This document shows positions 3,944 to 24,257 of a DNA stretch of 37,473 nt, piece after piece. The translations under genes and the position numbers were made by a program. The notes under the pieces were generated by a model that worked only from the letters and a program-made list of their open reading frames with translations, was not told the origin of the DNA and did not search any database. Location: the NCBI GenBank assembly GCA_021851875.1, contig JAJZQI010000020.1:1-37473 (forward strand), in the 5' to 3' direction. The DNA is from Pseudomonadota bacterium (lineage in GTDB: Bacteria > Pseudomonadota > Gammaproteobacteria > Burkholderiales > JAJZQI01). Each line of letters starts with the position of its first letter. The first letter of the stretch is position 1.

Positions 3944-3960
3944 TCTTGCGTGTTGCCGCG

Positions 3961-3989
3961 TTGCCTGTAGGGGTGGAGTTCGGTAAGAT
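3961..3989 (+). promoter_or_regulatory. candidate sigma-70 promoter of alaC
   Basis: TTGCCT (3961-3966) and TAAGAT (3984-3989) are separated by 17 bases, each matching 4 of 6 consensus positions. It lies in the divergent gap and would start transcription near 3996, about 40 bases before the alaC start. Confidence 0.45.
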
Positions 3990-4035
3990 TATGGATTTTA
4001 TACCACCGTCGAACCCGCGAGCTAGCAAAGAATTC

Positions 4036-5223
4036 ATGATGGACGAGTTTCCACGTATCAAGCGCCTACCACCCTATGTTTTCAATATTACCGGTGAGCT
4101 GAAACAGTCCGCTCGACGGCGTGGTGAAGATATTATCGATTTTGGCATGGGTAACCCCGATCAGCCCACGCCGCCTCATATCGTCGAGAAAATGATCGAG
4201 ACGGCGCGCCGCGGCGACACGCACCGCTATTCCGTTTCCAAGGGCATTCCGCGTTTGCGCAAAGCGATATGCAACTGGTACAAGACGCGTTACGACGTGG
4301 ACCTGGACCCGGATAAGGAAGCCATTGTCACCATCGGCTCCAAGGAAGGCATCGCCCACCTGGCACTGGCGACTCTGGATCAGGGAGACATTGTGCTGGT
4401 GCCAAACCCCAGCTATCCGATCCATATTTACGGACCCGTGATCGCCGGTGCGGATATCCGCCATATTCCCATGACGCCGGGCGTGGATTTTTTCCAGGAA
4501 ATGGAAACCGCCATCCGCAATCATTGGCCGAAGCCGAAGATGCTGATTCTGAATTTTCCGAGCAACCCGACCACGCAATGCGTGGAACTGGGGTTTTTCG
4601 AGAAAATCGTGGCAATTGCCAAGGAGCACAACATCCTGGTGGTACATGATATCGCTTACGCCGATATCGTTTTCGACGGTTACAAAGCACCGTCGATTAT
4701 GCAGGTGCCGGGTGCCAAGGATGTGGCGGTGGAGTTTTTCACCTTGTCCAAGAGTTACAATATGCCGGGCTGGCGTGTCGGTTTCATGGTCGGGAACGAA
4801 AGGCTGGTTGCCGCGCTGGCCCGTATCAAGAGCTATCACGACTACGGCACCTTCACGCCGATTCAGGTGGCTTCCATTCTTGCGCTGGAAGGGCCGCAGG
4901 ACTGCGTGGAAGAGATCCGCCAGATGTACCAAAAACGGCGTGACGTGTTGTGCAAGGGACTGCACAGCATTGGCTGGAATGTGGAAGTACCCAAGGCGAC
5001 CATGTTCGTTTGGGCGGCGATCCCGGAACAGTACAAGCACATGAAGTCGCTGGAGTTTTCCAAGAAAGTGCTGGCAGATGCCAAAGTGGCCGTGTCGCCC
5101 GGTATCGGTTTCGGCGAGTACGGCGACGATTTTGTCCGCTTTTCGCTGATTGAAAACGAAGAACGCACCCGCCAGGCCATCCGTGGCCTGAAGGAGATGT
5201 TCAAGAAAGATGGGGTGCTGTAA
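4036..5223 (+). CDS. alaC: alanine/valine-type aminotransferase AlaC
   Basis: This fold-type I PLP aminotransferase converts pyruvate and glutamate to alanine and 2-oxoglutarate. From its start ([16 protein letters not shown]) to its end it follows E. coli AlaC closely: [53 protein letters not shown] and the PLP-lysine motif [14 protein letters not shown] (Lys239). ATG 4036 or 4039 gives about 395 aa; an upstream extension to 3946 is open but has no family support and would run through the promoter. Bases 5154-5166 of the tail reappear as an exact reverse complement just after the stop, and a decayed second copy of the tail follows at 5292-5369. Confidence 0.93.
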
Positions 5224-5229
5224 CAGCAG

Positions 5230-5291
5230 GCGTTCTTCGTTTCGGTGCAGGCTAACTTTGCGCAGCAAAGTTAAGCGCAGCGGCCGGAGCC
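5230..5291. repeat. palindromic intergenic repeat, copy A
   Basis: The core is TAACTTTGC (5253-5261), GCA, then GCAAAGTTA (5265-5273), a perfect 9-bp hairpin. It is preceded by GCAGGC and followed by AGC-GCAGCGGC-type sequence. Read on the opposite strand, copy B near 15.35 kb has the same blocks in the same order: GCAGGCTAACTT, then GCAA-GTTAAGC, then AGCGGC. The left flank 5230-5242 is an exact reverse complement of 5154-5166 inside alaC. The right flank runs directly into the decayed alaC tail. The hairpin could also serve as the alaC 3' end. Confidence 0.7.
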
Positions 5292-5369
5292 AAAACGCTT
5301 TTGAACATACTCGTCAGGCTATTCGTGATCTGAAAGATGATGTTCAAAAAGGACGGTTTGTTGAAATGA
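5292..5369 (+). pseudogene. decayed second copy of the alaC 3' end
   Basis: Bases 5303-5369 align with the last 63 bases of alaC at roughly three quarters identity. The first frame reads EHTRQAIRDLK, against [11 protein letters not shown] in AlaC. A one-base insertion (T near 5336) then shifts frame; without it the copy continues [11 protein letters not shown] and stops at 5367-5369. Differences fall largely at third codon positions and the copy is AT-richer than the intact gene, so it looks like an old homologous coding end rather than a recent duplication. It has no start of its own and lies about 50 bases before hom. Confidence 0.75.
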
Positions 5370-15262: not shown

Positions 15263-15327
15263 GTTGGATTGGGTCGCTCGTTGAATTGTCCGGTTACGTT
15301 CACGTTCCTTCCCAGTTGCGCGCTTGT
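15263..15327 (-). pseudogene. decayed second copy of the smpB 3' end
   Basis: These 65 bases align without gaps to 15405-15469, the smpB C-terminal coding region, with 52 identities (80%). In the smpB frame the copy reads DKRATGKERERNRTIQRA, against [18 protein letters not shown] in SmpB, then loses the stop and runs on. It has no start codon and is separated from the intact smpB stop by palindromic repeat copy B. This is the same arrangement as the alaC tail near 5.3 kb. Confidence 0.78.
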
Positions 15328-15384
15328 GGCGTCGGCCGCCGCTACGCGGCTTAACTTGCTCCTCAAGTTAGCCTGCGCCACAAG
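15322..15384. repeat. palindromic intergenic repeat, copy B
   Basis: The outer arms GCTTGTGGCG (15322-15331) and CGCCACAAGC (15375-15384) are exact complements. Between them lie a small hairpin GCCGC-TAC-GCGGC and the main hairpin TAACTTG ... CAAGTTA. On the minus strand the order GCAGGCTAACTT, GCAAGTTAAGC, AGCGGC matches copy A (5230-5291). It starts 12 bases after the smpB stop in the direction of smpB transcription and abuts the decayed smpB tail; one outer arm overlaps the start of that tail. Confidence 0.72.
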
Positions 15385-15395
15385 CACTGAAGTTG

Positions 15396-15845
15396 CTAGC
15401 TTCGGTTGGACTTGATGGCACGTTGGATTTCGCGGTCGCTTTCACGTTCCTTCTCAGTTGCGCGCTTGTCATGCTGTTTTTTACCCTTGGCCAGGCCGAT
15501 CTGGGCCTTGATGCGGCCACGGGTATAGTGCAGGTCGAGCGGCACGAGGGTATAACCGGCCCGTTCCACCTTGCCGATCAGCTTGCGGATTTCTTCCGCG
15601 TGTAACAACAACTTGCGGGTGCGTACAGGATCAGGGTGAATGTGAGTCGAAGCGGTTGGCAGCGGACTGATGTGGCAACCGATCAAATAGAGCGCGGCAT
15701 TGCGAATGACGACGTAGGACTCTTTCAGATTGATGCGCCCGGCACGGATGGCCTTGACCTCCCAGCCCTCCAGCACAAGACCCGCCTCGTACTTTTCCTC
15801 GATAAAGTAGTCGTGCAGGGCTTTCTTGTTGTCAGTGATGCTCAT
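15396..15845 (-). CDS. smpB: SsrA-binding protein SmpB
   Basis: SmpB binds tmRNA and delivers it to stalled ribosomes for trans-translation. The 149-aa protein has the OB-fold body ([28 protein letters not shown], then [10 protein letters not shown] and TRKLLLH), [20 protein letters not shown], and a basic C-terminal tail ([11 protein letters not shown]) of the kind that folds into the mRNA channel. It is divergent from ratA-rnfH, a conserved arrangement in proteobacteria. The tmRNA gene is not in the window. The 3' end is followed by a palindromic repeat and a diverged duplicate of the tail. Confidence 0.97.
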
Positions 15846-21542: not shown

Positions 21543-24257
21543 TTATTTTTGCGTTTCGATCTGCACCAGCTCTTCGGCCGGGGCAGCTTTTGCGGCCGGA
21601 CGACGGCGCGAACGACGCGGTTTCTCCGCTGGAGCTTCAACAAGCGCATCAGCGGTTTCTGCCGCAACGACGGGTTCACCGGTCACTTCGGCGCGGGTTT
21701 CAACCTGCTGCAGTTCGACCTTTACGGGGGCCTCAGTTTTGGCTTGAGTCCGGCGGCGCTGACGCGGCTTGCGTTCCGGTGCGGCTTCGGCCGGCGTTTG
21801 CTCCACCGCTGTTTCGGATGCTTCGGATGCCTCCGCCACAACCGGTTCTTCGACCGCTTCTACACCGGCGGCGACCGGTTCTTGCGCCGCGCGGGTTTCT
21901 ACCTGCTGCAGCTCGACGACGGTGTGCACCATCTGATCGGCCGGAATGGCCCGGCGGCGTTCACGCGGGGTATGCTGGGCCGGCCGGCTGACTGCCGCTT
22001 CCTCGGTGGTGACTTCAACCGCGACCGGCGCAGGGGCTTCCGTCGGCTCGATGGCTGCCGGCTCGCTTTGGCCGGGGGCAATGGCTACCGGTGCGAGAGC
22101 CGCTTCCTGCAGATCCGTTGCTACATTGGTTTGCATTTCGCTGTCGCGCGGTTCGCCGCGCTCGCGACGTCCGCCGCGGCGTCCGCGGCGGCTGCCGCCA
22201 CTGCGCTGCTCGCCTTGTTCTGCTGCTGGCATTTCAGCGGCCGGGGCAGTGACTTTGGCTGCCTGTTCCTGCGGGGCGCGCTCGCCACGCGGCTGACGGT
22301 CACGCTGTTGGCGATTTTCACCGCCGCCGCGTTGCGCATTACGCTGTTCACGGCCCTCACGGTTTTCGCGACCGGCTTCACGGTTGGCGCCGCCCTCACG
22401 GCGTTCGCTGCGCTCGCCATCGCGGCCGCGTTCACCCTCACGGCGCGGTTTGCGGTTGTCCTGGCGCCGTCCTTGTTGCTGCGGCTGGCGCGCCGGCTGA
22501 GCGGCCGGGGCCGGTGCGGCAACGGCTTCGGCGGCTGCCGATTCTTCACCCAAACGGTTCTTCAGCCAGCCGAACAGGCGGCCGAGGAAGGTCGGGCGCG
22601 CAGGCGTTGCTGCCGCGGTGGCGGCCGTCGGTGCAGGCGCCGGCTGAGGCGGAGTAATGCCTTTGACAACGGCTTCCTGGCGCTGCGGAGCGGGCTGCTC
22701 CGGCCGGTAGCCCGGTTTTTCGCCTTCGGCGGGCTGCTCAACCAGCATGTAGCTGGGCTGGCCGCTGTCGGCCTGGTTCAGGTCATCGTGCCGCAGACGG
22801 GTAACCGTATAGTTGGGTGTTTCGATGTGAATGTTGGGAATCAGAATGACATTAACCTTGAGGCGCGCTTCAAGGCGGTGGATTTCCGAACGCTTTTCAT
22901 TCAGCAGGTAAGTCGCAACATCAACCGGAACCTGGGCATGTACGGCAGCCGTATTCTCCTTCATGGCCTCTTCCTGGATGATGCGCAGGATGTGCAGGGC
23001 GGAGGAGTCGGTGCTGCGGATATGGCCGATGCCGTGGCAGCGCGGGCAGGCGATATGGCTGGTTTCACCCAGCGACGGTTGCAGGCGCTGGCGTGACAGT
23101 TCCAGCAGACCGAAGCGGGAAATCTTGCTGGTTTGCACGCGTGCGCGATCGAATTTGAGCGCGTCACGCAGACGGTTTTCCACTTCGCGCTGGTTTTTCT
23201 GGCTTTCCATGTCGATGAAATCGATCACGATCAGGCCGCCCAGGTCGCGCAGGCGCAGTTGGCGCGCCACTTCGTCGGCGGCTTCCAGGTTGGTGTTGAA
23301 GGCGGTCGCCTCGATGTCGCTGCCGCGGGTGGCGCGGGCCGAGTTGACGTCAATGGAAACCAGCGCTTCGGTATGGTCGATCACAATCGCACCGCCGGAA
23401 GGCAGGGGCACTTCGCGGGCGAAGGCGGTTTCGATCTGGTGCTCGATCTGGAAGCGCGAGAACAGCGGGATGTCATCCTTGTACAGCTTGATCTTGTTGA
23501 CGTTCTGCGGCATCACATGGCTCATGAACTGCATGGCCTGCTCGTAGATGTAGTCGGTGTCGATCAGGATTTCGCCGATGTCGGGCTGGAAGTAGTCGCG
23601 GATGGCGCGAATGACCAGACTGCCTTCCTGATAAATGAGGAAAGCGCCGCTCTGAGTGGTGGATGCGCCTTCGATGGCGTGCCACAGTTGCAGCAGGTAG
23701 TTCATGTCCCACTGCAGTTCTTCCAGGCCGCGGCCGATACCGGCGGTGCGGGCGATGATGCTCATGCCCTGCGGCACGTCCAGCTGGGCCATGATGTCGC
23801 GCAGCTCGTTGCGTTCTTCGCCCTCGATGCGGCGGGATACGCCGCCGCCACGCGGATTGTTGGGCATCAGCACCAGATAGCGGCCTGCCAGGCTGATGAA
23901 GGTGGTGAGCGCAGCGCCTTTGTTGCCGCGCTCGTCCTTGTCCACCTGCACGATGACTTCCATGCCTTCGCGGATGACGTCCTGAATGCGGGCGCGGCCC
24001 AGTTCGCCGGTGTAATCCGGGCTGAAATAGGCGCGGGCGATTTCTTTGAAGGGGAGGAAGCCGTGGCGGTCGGTGCCGTAATCGACAAACGCCGCTTCAA
24101 GGCTGGGCTCTACGCGAGTGATGACGCCCTTGTAGATGTTGCTTTTGCGTTGTTCCTTTGCGGCAGATTCAATATCGAGGTCAATCAGTTTTTGTCCGTC
24201 GACAATGGCCACCCGCAATTCTTCTGCCTGGGTGGCATTAAAAAGCATTCTTTTCAT
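21543..24257 (-). CDS. rne: ribonuclease E
   Basis: RNase E is the essential endonuclease that starts mRNA decay and matures rRNA and tRNA, and it scaffolds the degradosome. The 904-aa product has the catalytic half with an S1 domain (about 36-120), the 5'-sensor/RNase H part, metal-binding Asp303 ([13 protein letters not shown]) and a second Asp in IVIDFIDM, and the zinc link CPRC at Cys404/Cys407, numbers that coincide with E. coli. After about residue 520 the tail is low-complexity: an Arg/Glu/Gly-rich RNA-binding stretch and an Ala/Glu/Pro-rich region. [10 protein letters not shown] occurs at 781-790 and 847-856, with LVQIET at 897-902. Confidence 0.97.

Follow-up and report, generated by a model that had tools for sequence, protein, structure and literature searches.

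Small hairpin insertions at a short motif in conserved genes, flanked by duplicated gene parts, in a genome of the Burkholderiales and its relatives

Described mobile elements and the two loci of the window

MITEs and Rickettsia palindromic elements (RPEs) are small non-coding palindromic insertions, the latter also occurring within coding sequences, and the attC sites of integrons are folded sites with paired R and L boxes (consensus GTTRRRY and RYYYAAC) and a crossover at G|TT; attG is reportedly the subject of Loot et al. 2024. REPs are described as palindromes that follow a tetranucleotide, usually GTAG (PMC8266576). At tRNA genes, genomic islands split their target, which is restored by the incoming DNA, and the displaced fragment comes to lie at the far end of the island (PMC4383910).

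The window analyzed here, a stretch of 37,473 nucleotides belonging to a 2.68 Mb genome (G000), carries beside smpB a repeat that is a member of a family of hairpin insertions of about 60 bases, which code for no protein and occupy one short motif. Among titles and opening lines of abstracts in the open-access literature, a scope outside which most subscription papers lie, no such element was found. Like the genomic islands, prophages and ICEs that rely on tyrosine integrases, these units use tRNA genes and gene ends, and they share with genomic islands the whole target accompanied by a displaced fragment, in protein genes and in tRNAs alike. In contrast to islands, however, the units measure about 0.1–0.2 kb, no integrase or cargo was found in them (at most loci the copies lie too close together for an integrase gene to fit within the element), and many target genes are used per core family through one short motif. 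By analogy, they would work much like the gene restoration of genomic islands, at a far smaller size and without an integrase. Integron cassettes are likewise hairpin-bearing units in tandem, but the units described here carry a part of a gene and no full gene. With REPs and REPINs they have in common a short imperfect palindrome, a GNAG foot, many copies and a mostly extragenic position, whereas the cores are single, flanked by duplicates of gene parts and, as far as detected, unassociated with RAYT. MITEs and RPEs resemble them as small non-coding palindromic insertions, but here a second copy of the affected part preserves an intact gene, and terminal inverted repeats with a short target duplication were not seen at the two loci of the window.

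The features of these two loci are collected in Table 1. At smpB, the sequence-only reading had described an intact gene end, a palindromic repeat and a duplicate of the end, and most of this was borne out: the two copies are identical at 52 of 65 positions, as claimed, the local alignment of smpB with its own downstream spacer reaches 68, the highest of 300 mononucleotide shuffles being 27, the outer arms are exact inverses with the first of them overlapping the remnant, and sequence comparison confirmed the homology of the core to that on the alaC side. The remnant keeps a reading, as had been stated, but this was corrected by eye to HKRATGKERERNRTIQRA, since its first codon is CAC rather than GAC. 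Two matches to TAACTT-N2-12-AAGTTA lie in the window, against none in 100 shuffles. The ACAAG of the smpB site motif is present again at the 3' end of the core, and the smpB of the congener (G001) has an element-free site reading TGACAAG. At the 13 bases that discriminate between the smpB copies, this relative agrees with the intact copy at 7 and with the remnant at 4, as decay of the remnant would give. The same arrangement had been proposed for alaC, where core and duplicate are indeed found, although the duplicate scores lower (41, with shuffles reaching 30 at most); its remnant carries a frame shift of one base. The alaC insertion predates the split of the genus, with later homogenisation in G001, and nrdA in G036 and G042 presents a similar picture.

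Table 1. Position of the features at the smpB and alaC loci of the window.
Feature	Position	Strand	Basis
smpB, intact CDS	15396..15845	-	NCBIfam smpB models above cut-off
smpB end, intact copy (U) of the duplicated part	15405..15469	-	Alignment
Insertion-site motif TGACAAG (KGAMAAN) inside smpB	15465..15471	-	Sequence and motif table
smpB hairpin core	15323..15386	-	R1 match 65.9 bits; founding copy of the model
smpB 5' outer arm, minus strand GCTTGTGGCG (plus strand CGCCACAAGC)	15376..15385	-	
smpB 3' outer arm, minus strand CGCCACAAGC (plus strand GCTTGTGGCG), overlapping the remnant	15322..15331	-	
smpB remnant copy (D), abutting the 3' end of the core	15263..15327	-	Alignment
alaC, intact CDS	3946..5223	+	NCBIfam alanine transaminase above cut-off
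alaC end, intact copy (U) of the duplicated part	5161..5209	+	Alignment
Insertion-site motif TGAAAAC inside alaC	5151..5157	+	Assigned by eye; motif from the 12-gene table
alaC outer arm, exact inverse of alaC 5154-5166	5230..5242	+	
alaC hairpin core	5237..5296	+	R1 match 69.9 bits; founding copy of the model
alaC end, remnant copy (D)	5303..5351	+	Alignment

Distribution, gene-part duplicates and target site

Nine copies retrieved by exact pattern were aligned (A1) and converted into a covariance model (R1), which describes a hairpin core of about 60 bp with a stem of about 11 bp and a short loop; the foot of the palindrome reads GNAG in all nine founding copies and GTAG in three of them. 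In G000 the model finds 23 copies at E<1e-6 and 27 at E<=0.5. Matches were obtained in 17 of the 41 genomes searched (own included), which were sampled as one genome per species and represent one family each except for G000 and G001; copy numbers reach 44 in G021, the highest value, and 19 in G001. Within 80 regions taken from the relatives R1 re-found 114 hits. Tandem units occur in several genomes, and several contigs end in arrays. An Rfam scan of seven loci at gathering scores returned tRNA as the sole match, and the alaC core (76 bases) had no match at E<=0.01 among plasmids and phages. On a contig filed as viral (L393:2081-2113) an exact-pattern core follows an apparent rpoD end, as judged by eye, and a flank duplicate was looked for there with none detected. 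Within the window, a weak R1 match (23.4 bits, E 0.006; 21778-21844, minus strand) lies inside a large ORF (21543-24257) and is probably due to chance.

Collecting the genomic copies and aligning their flanks had been proposed as a check by the sequence-only reading. For 137 elements, 200 bp on either side were aligned with the elements masked, and 134 of them could be scored (3 were unscorable): a flank duplicate with a score of at least 30 accompanies 66 elements, 14 of the 23 G000 copies being at or above this value, and 68 show no duplicate at that threshold. Among 396 swapped-flank pairs the 99th percentile was 25 and the maximum 53; random positions in the same loci (n = 189) gave a 95th percentile of 26.6 and a 99th percentile of 143, the latter, in our opinion, because the duplicates themselves were left unmasked. 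The downstream copy (D) begins exactly at the end of the core in half of the duplicates (33), 1–8 bp later in 14, 9–20 bp later in 3 and further away in 16, the 66 duplicates not being independent since tandem units were counted per element.

When read individually, 11 of the 17 distinct loci of G000 have a duplicated gene part, namely serS, alaC, smpB, nuoD, dnaJ, typA, xerC, dapD, a sarcosine-oxidase-like gene, an unnamed gene on contig C2 and one tRNA (tRNA-Phe). With the same pattern present in other families of the order, the claim that one mechanism acts at many unrelated genes is strongly supported. Its placement at gene 3' ends did not hold, as the same happens at the start of nuoD and in the 5' halves of tRNAs, and targets such as the nuoD start and tRNA anticodon loops argue against a 3'-end process. 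The protein-gene targets include the ends of conserved genes (serS, dnaJ, smpB, alaC, glmS, nrdA, dapD and xerC), gene names having been assigned with NCBIfam on 17 proteins, several of which are partial and some of these for that reason below the curated cut-off, and by eye for NuoD. Both genomes of the genus have a target at the 3' end of xerC (L035, L116), which codes for a site-specific recombinase, and the G000 xerC copies near contig ends are probably one tandem array.

Directly ahead of the duplicated stretch, the intact copy of 12 hand-picked target genes with clean junctions reads KGAMAAN|, with G in 11 genes, the first A in 12, M in 11 and each of the following two A's in 11. Adenine fills 41 of 48 positions against 9.9 expected, a count reached in none of 20000 random placements, and when the last five bases of the motif are compared between the gene and the end of the core, 54 of 60 positions agree; nuoD deviates, with CC at the two bases preceding the A's. 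The same site is occupied across families. At the nuoD start one position is taken at 8 loci. Five of these lie in G000, G001, G036, G015 and G040, and the other three come from a set of 80 NuoD loci of named genomes, namely those of Sideroxydans Simpson2, one Gallionellales MAG and one Rhodocyclaceae MAG, the core being found by R1 in the first two of these and by eye only in the third (L281), while glmS, nrdA and alaC are targeted in more than one family. Sites free of the element are seen in relatives for glmS and nrdA (both in G041 and G043), for nuoD (G042) and for metK (G042 and G041). The motif is missing from the element-free nrdA of G043 and from the element-free metK of G042 and G041, and in light of these metK relatives the motif adjacent to the upstream, intact copy (U) may belong to the unit. 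Two Thiobacillus nuoD loci have an apparent second start without a core. Between nuoC and nuoD (L029, L113, L150, L175), the displaced nuoD start and the element form a short ORF whose stop lies at or shortly ahead of the new start of nuoD, as though translational coupling had been preserved.

Origin of the two copies and competing explanations

At tRNA loci the order is a truncated 5' half, one or more cores and the intact tRNA, the targets being tRNA-Ser and tRNA-Leu of G021, tRNA-Phe of G037 and G000, and tRNA-Ser of G030. The break lies on the A-rich side of the anticodon loop in L139, L148 and L125, and in L139 and L148 the sequences preceding the two 5' halves look unrelated by eye. Given this layout and these leaders, the element side appears to supply the 5' half and perhaps the promoter, and the tRNA case appears to be the mirror image of the protein-gene case. 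The 5' arm before the core often repeats, in inverted orientation, the gene sequence spanning the insertion site, and the earlier suggestion that the palindrome was copied from the target gene fits as far as this outer arm is concerned. Across 36 loci the pairing of the arm favors the U junction in 22 and the D junction in 4, with 10 ties, and it exceeds the 95th percentile of shuffled junctions in 22 of 36 cases for U and 13 of 36 for D. In place, the arm faces D; the better fit to U would be expected if the core had once been contiguous with the start of U, be it in a circle or within tandem units, or alternatively if the arm had been copied from the gene.

Divergence between U and D is mostly synonymous. 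Over 27 loci, hand- or score-selected from the flank-alignment table like those of the arm-pairing and motif analyses, 76 codon differences are synonymous and 27 non-synonymous as counted, or 22 after the exclusion of five codons (a post-stop one in L047, three in L115 and the start codon in L029), and old remnants carry part of these differences (smpB 3 and 5, alaC of G030 0 and 5). In dapD, nrdB, glmS, nrdA and dnaJ of G001 only synonymous changes precede the stop, which argues that both copies were under protein constraint during divergence; L281 has 7 synonymous codon changes, Ser TCT/AGC included (counted by eye). The duplicates are short and comparisons with relatives therefore rest on few discriminating bases. 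For dapD, an element-bearing gene in G001 likewise, the relatives agree with D at 9, 8, 6 and 7 bases and with U at 1, 3, 4 and 1; for typA the values are 2 and 2 for D and 0 and 0 for U, and for metK, whose D has lost the stop codon, 5 and 4 for D and 3 and 2 for U. Such agreement clearly supports a foreign intact end at dapD and weakly supports one at metK and typA. Base comparisons at glmS (3:2 and 2:3) and nuoD of G036 (2:2) appear neutral as to which copy is native, and those at nrdB contrary (D to U 1 to 4 in the nearest relative, then 2 to 2 and 2 to 1). The view of the downstream copy as a decayed duplicate is compatible with the smpB base counts, but the downstream copy of dapD looks native and that of nuoD adjoins nuoC.

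We see about even chances that a small protein-free mobile unit inserts at KG|AMAAN in a conserved gene and brings along a substitute for the part it severs. In protein genes the unit would consist, in this order, of AMAAN, the substitute gene end (U), a short spacer, the arm and the hairpin core, and it would land just before the native AMAAN and the native end (D), leaving D stranded past the core; in tRNA genes it would bring the upstream region and the 5' half, which would join the native 3' half. The unit may move as a circle or a single strand and may pass between species, with a recombinase acting in trans, which may be of the tyrosine type (integron integrase or XerC, for example). U would have arrived with the core and D would be the native copy, a distinction that only dapD makes clear, together with nuoD on positional grounds. 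Counting against this explanation are nrdB, which is contrary, glmS and nuoD of G036, which do not discriminate, and metK with only 5:3 and 4:2, relatives that lack the motif and a D without its stop, together with the 68 of 134 elements devoid of a duplicate at the threshold used, several identical or nearly identical pairs, as a fresh duplication gives, the homogenisation within genomes in places, and an integron integrase seen only as fragments in G021 and not above cut-off in G001. A further possibility, which we regard as rather unlikely, is that the units form a distinct class of mobile DNA: protein-free cassettes of about 0.1–0.2 kb, each addressed to one conserved gene by the gene piece on board, which would be transferred horizontally from species to species as circles bearing the hairpin, with a tyrosine recombinase of the host or of an integron as the enzyme, and would do no harm since every insertion mends the gene that it splits. 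If insertion with a substitute is true, essential genes receive new ends time and again from minute selfish insertions, and codons, stops, start regions and tRNA promoters are altered without a protein-coding trace; the units would show, on a minimal scale, how genomic islands restore the genes they split and would offer a natural label by which the recombinase could be traced, and intergenic fragments of genes and tRNAs may be displaced originals and not copies.

The main rival is a serious one, even if we rate it as rather unlikely: a hairpin insertion accompanied by a very long target duplication (about 20–90 bp), produced within the same genome by replication template switching, in which the copies would be identical at first, the outer arm would be a snap-back copy of the target, and gene conversion and decay would follow. 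The arm inverse to the gene across the site would be accounted for, as would the fold-back sequences found behind the core at tRNA loci, the identical or near-identical pairs (80/80 in both L130 and L163, 73/75 in L129, 39/39 in L170, and also L240), the copies homogenised within genomes (serS and alaC of G001, nrdA in G036 and G042) and the neutral or contrary outcome of the native-versus-foreign tests at glmS, nuoD and nrdB. Such a duplication leaves unexplained, however, the synonymous excess of 76 to 22 and the Ser TCT/AGC change, the duplicates ending at the stop codon (L129, L039), the differing sequence before the two tRNA 5' halves (by eye) and the dapD pattern, and the same site would have to be struck repeatedly in nuoD, glmS, nrdA and alaC. 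A plain tandem duplication is contradicted by the site motif, by the core between the copies and by the synonymous pattern.

A single origin of the duplicated allele in each gene, followed by spread between species through ordinary homologous recombination in the conserved flanking gene, with an element that is now immobile, is improbable in our judgment. The occurrence of the same gene and site across families and, at dapD, a foreign-looking U next to a native-looking D would agree with such a spread, but the body of metK equals the congener for its last 16 bases and then changes at the motif, and a motif common to 12 unrelated genes would still require a site-specific origin. Homologous recombination in the flanking gene may nonetheless be how the units travel today. 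Even less credit, and very little of it, goes to a REP family mobilized by a RAYT (Y1) transposase, in spite of a small palindrome with a GNAG foot that recalls the tetranucleotide, mostly GTAG, noted for REPs (PMC8266576): Y1_Tnp was not found in 5 of the 13 element genomes, including G021 with its 44 copies, R1 gave no match around 30 Y1 loci, and GTAG forms the foot of only 3 of the 9 founding copies. Remnants of larger islands were also considered. Leftward of 14 elements, 11 of which have no local duplicate of score 30, no copy over 1.1–19 kb could be read as an island end; far matches above shuffles at 5 of the 14 (G000 C40, G030 C22, G021, G037; a further one for the G030 left flank) were read as other repeats.

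Candidate enzymes and related repeats

Reverse transcription with snap-back would suit the exact 3' junction, the A-rich end and the arm, and it was rejected with RVT_1 not found in 9 of 13 element genomes, G000, G001 and G021 among them. In a comparison of hand-picked genomes uncorrected for kinship (13 of the 17 R1-positive and 11 of the 24 R1-negative), from which G042 and G041, both with an integrase above cut-off, were omitted as R1 was not counted there, an integron integrase above cut-off is present in 10 of 13 element genomes and in 2 of 11 genomes lacking R1 hits (Fisher p 0.012), and in 12 of 13 element genomes when fragments in G021 and G031 are included (p 0.0005). This co-occurrence is a lead only; G001 has no integron integrase above cut-off, and G021, with 44 copies, has fragments only. 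R1 gave no convincing match near integrases (best E 0.1 and 0.23). As a tyrosine recombinase, XerC may be regarded as a further candidate; the end of its own gene is among the targets.

Some likeness of the core to attC was noted, as its GTTAAGC fits the consensus GTTRRRY, its GGCTAAC nearly fits RYYYAAC, and the smpB core has TTAAGCCGCG in common with an attC-like site of G026 (by eye). The core was nevertheless rejected as an attC site on account of its stem of about 11 bp and of a junction at AMAAN with a variable last base and not at G|TT. Pattern scans of integrase loci and regions yielded three attC-like sites, one each in G042, G015 and G026. G000 itself has an integron integrase (G000:C38:236852-237790; L351, L366) that scores 484 bits, well above the family cut-off, and the pattern scan found no attC site in its neighborhood. 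Elsewhere in this genome (C27, L024:301-375) an attC-like sequence with GTCTAAC and GTTAGAC ends (by eye) lies close to a gene for a Y1 transposase that has GGCCTTACATTT-type repeats of its own on either side.

Cores are also contained in larger repeats. On C40 of G000 (L381:17048-18274), a 317-aa ORF lies between two similar, larger repeats that carry a core, run in the same direction and are spaced 1.1 kb apart; no gene-part duplicate was detected there. In G021, dispersed composites (L131-L147) with inverted ends (GGAAACGCTGAA or CCGTTGAAAAA) hold one or two cores inside, their TIR-like ends setting them apart from the gene-end units.
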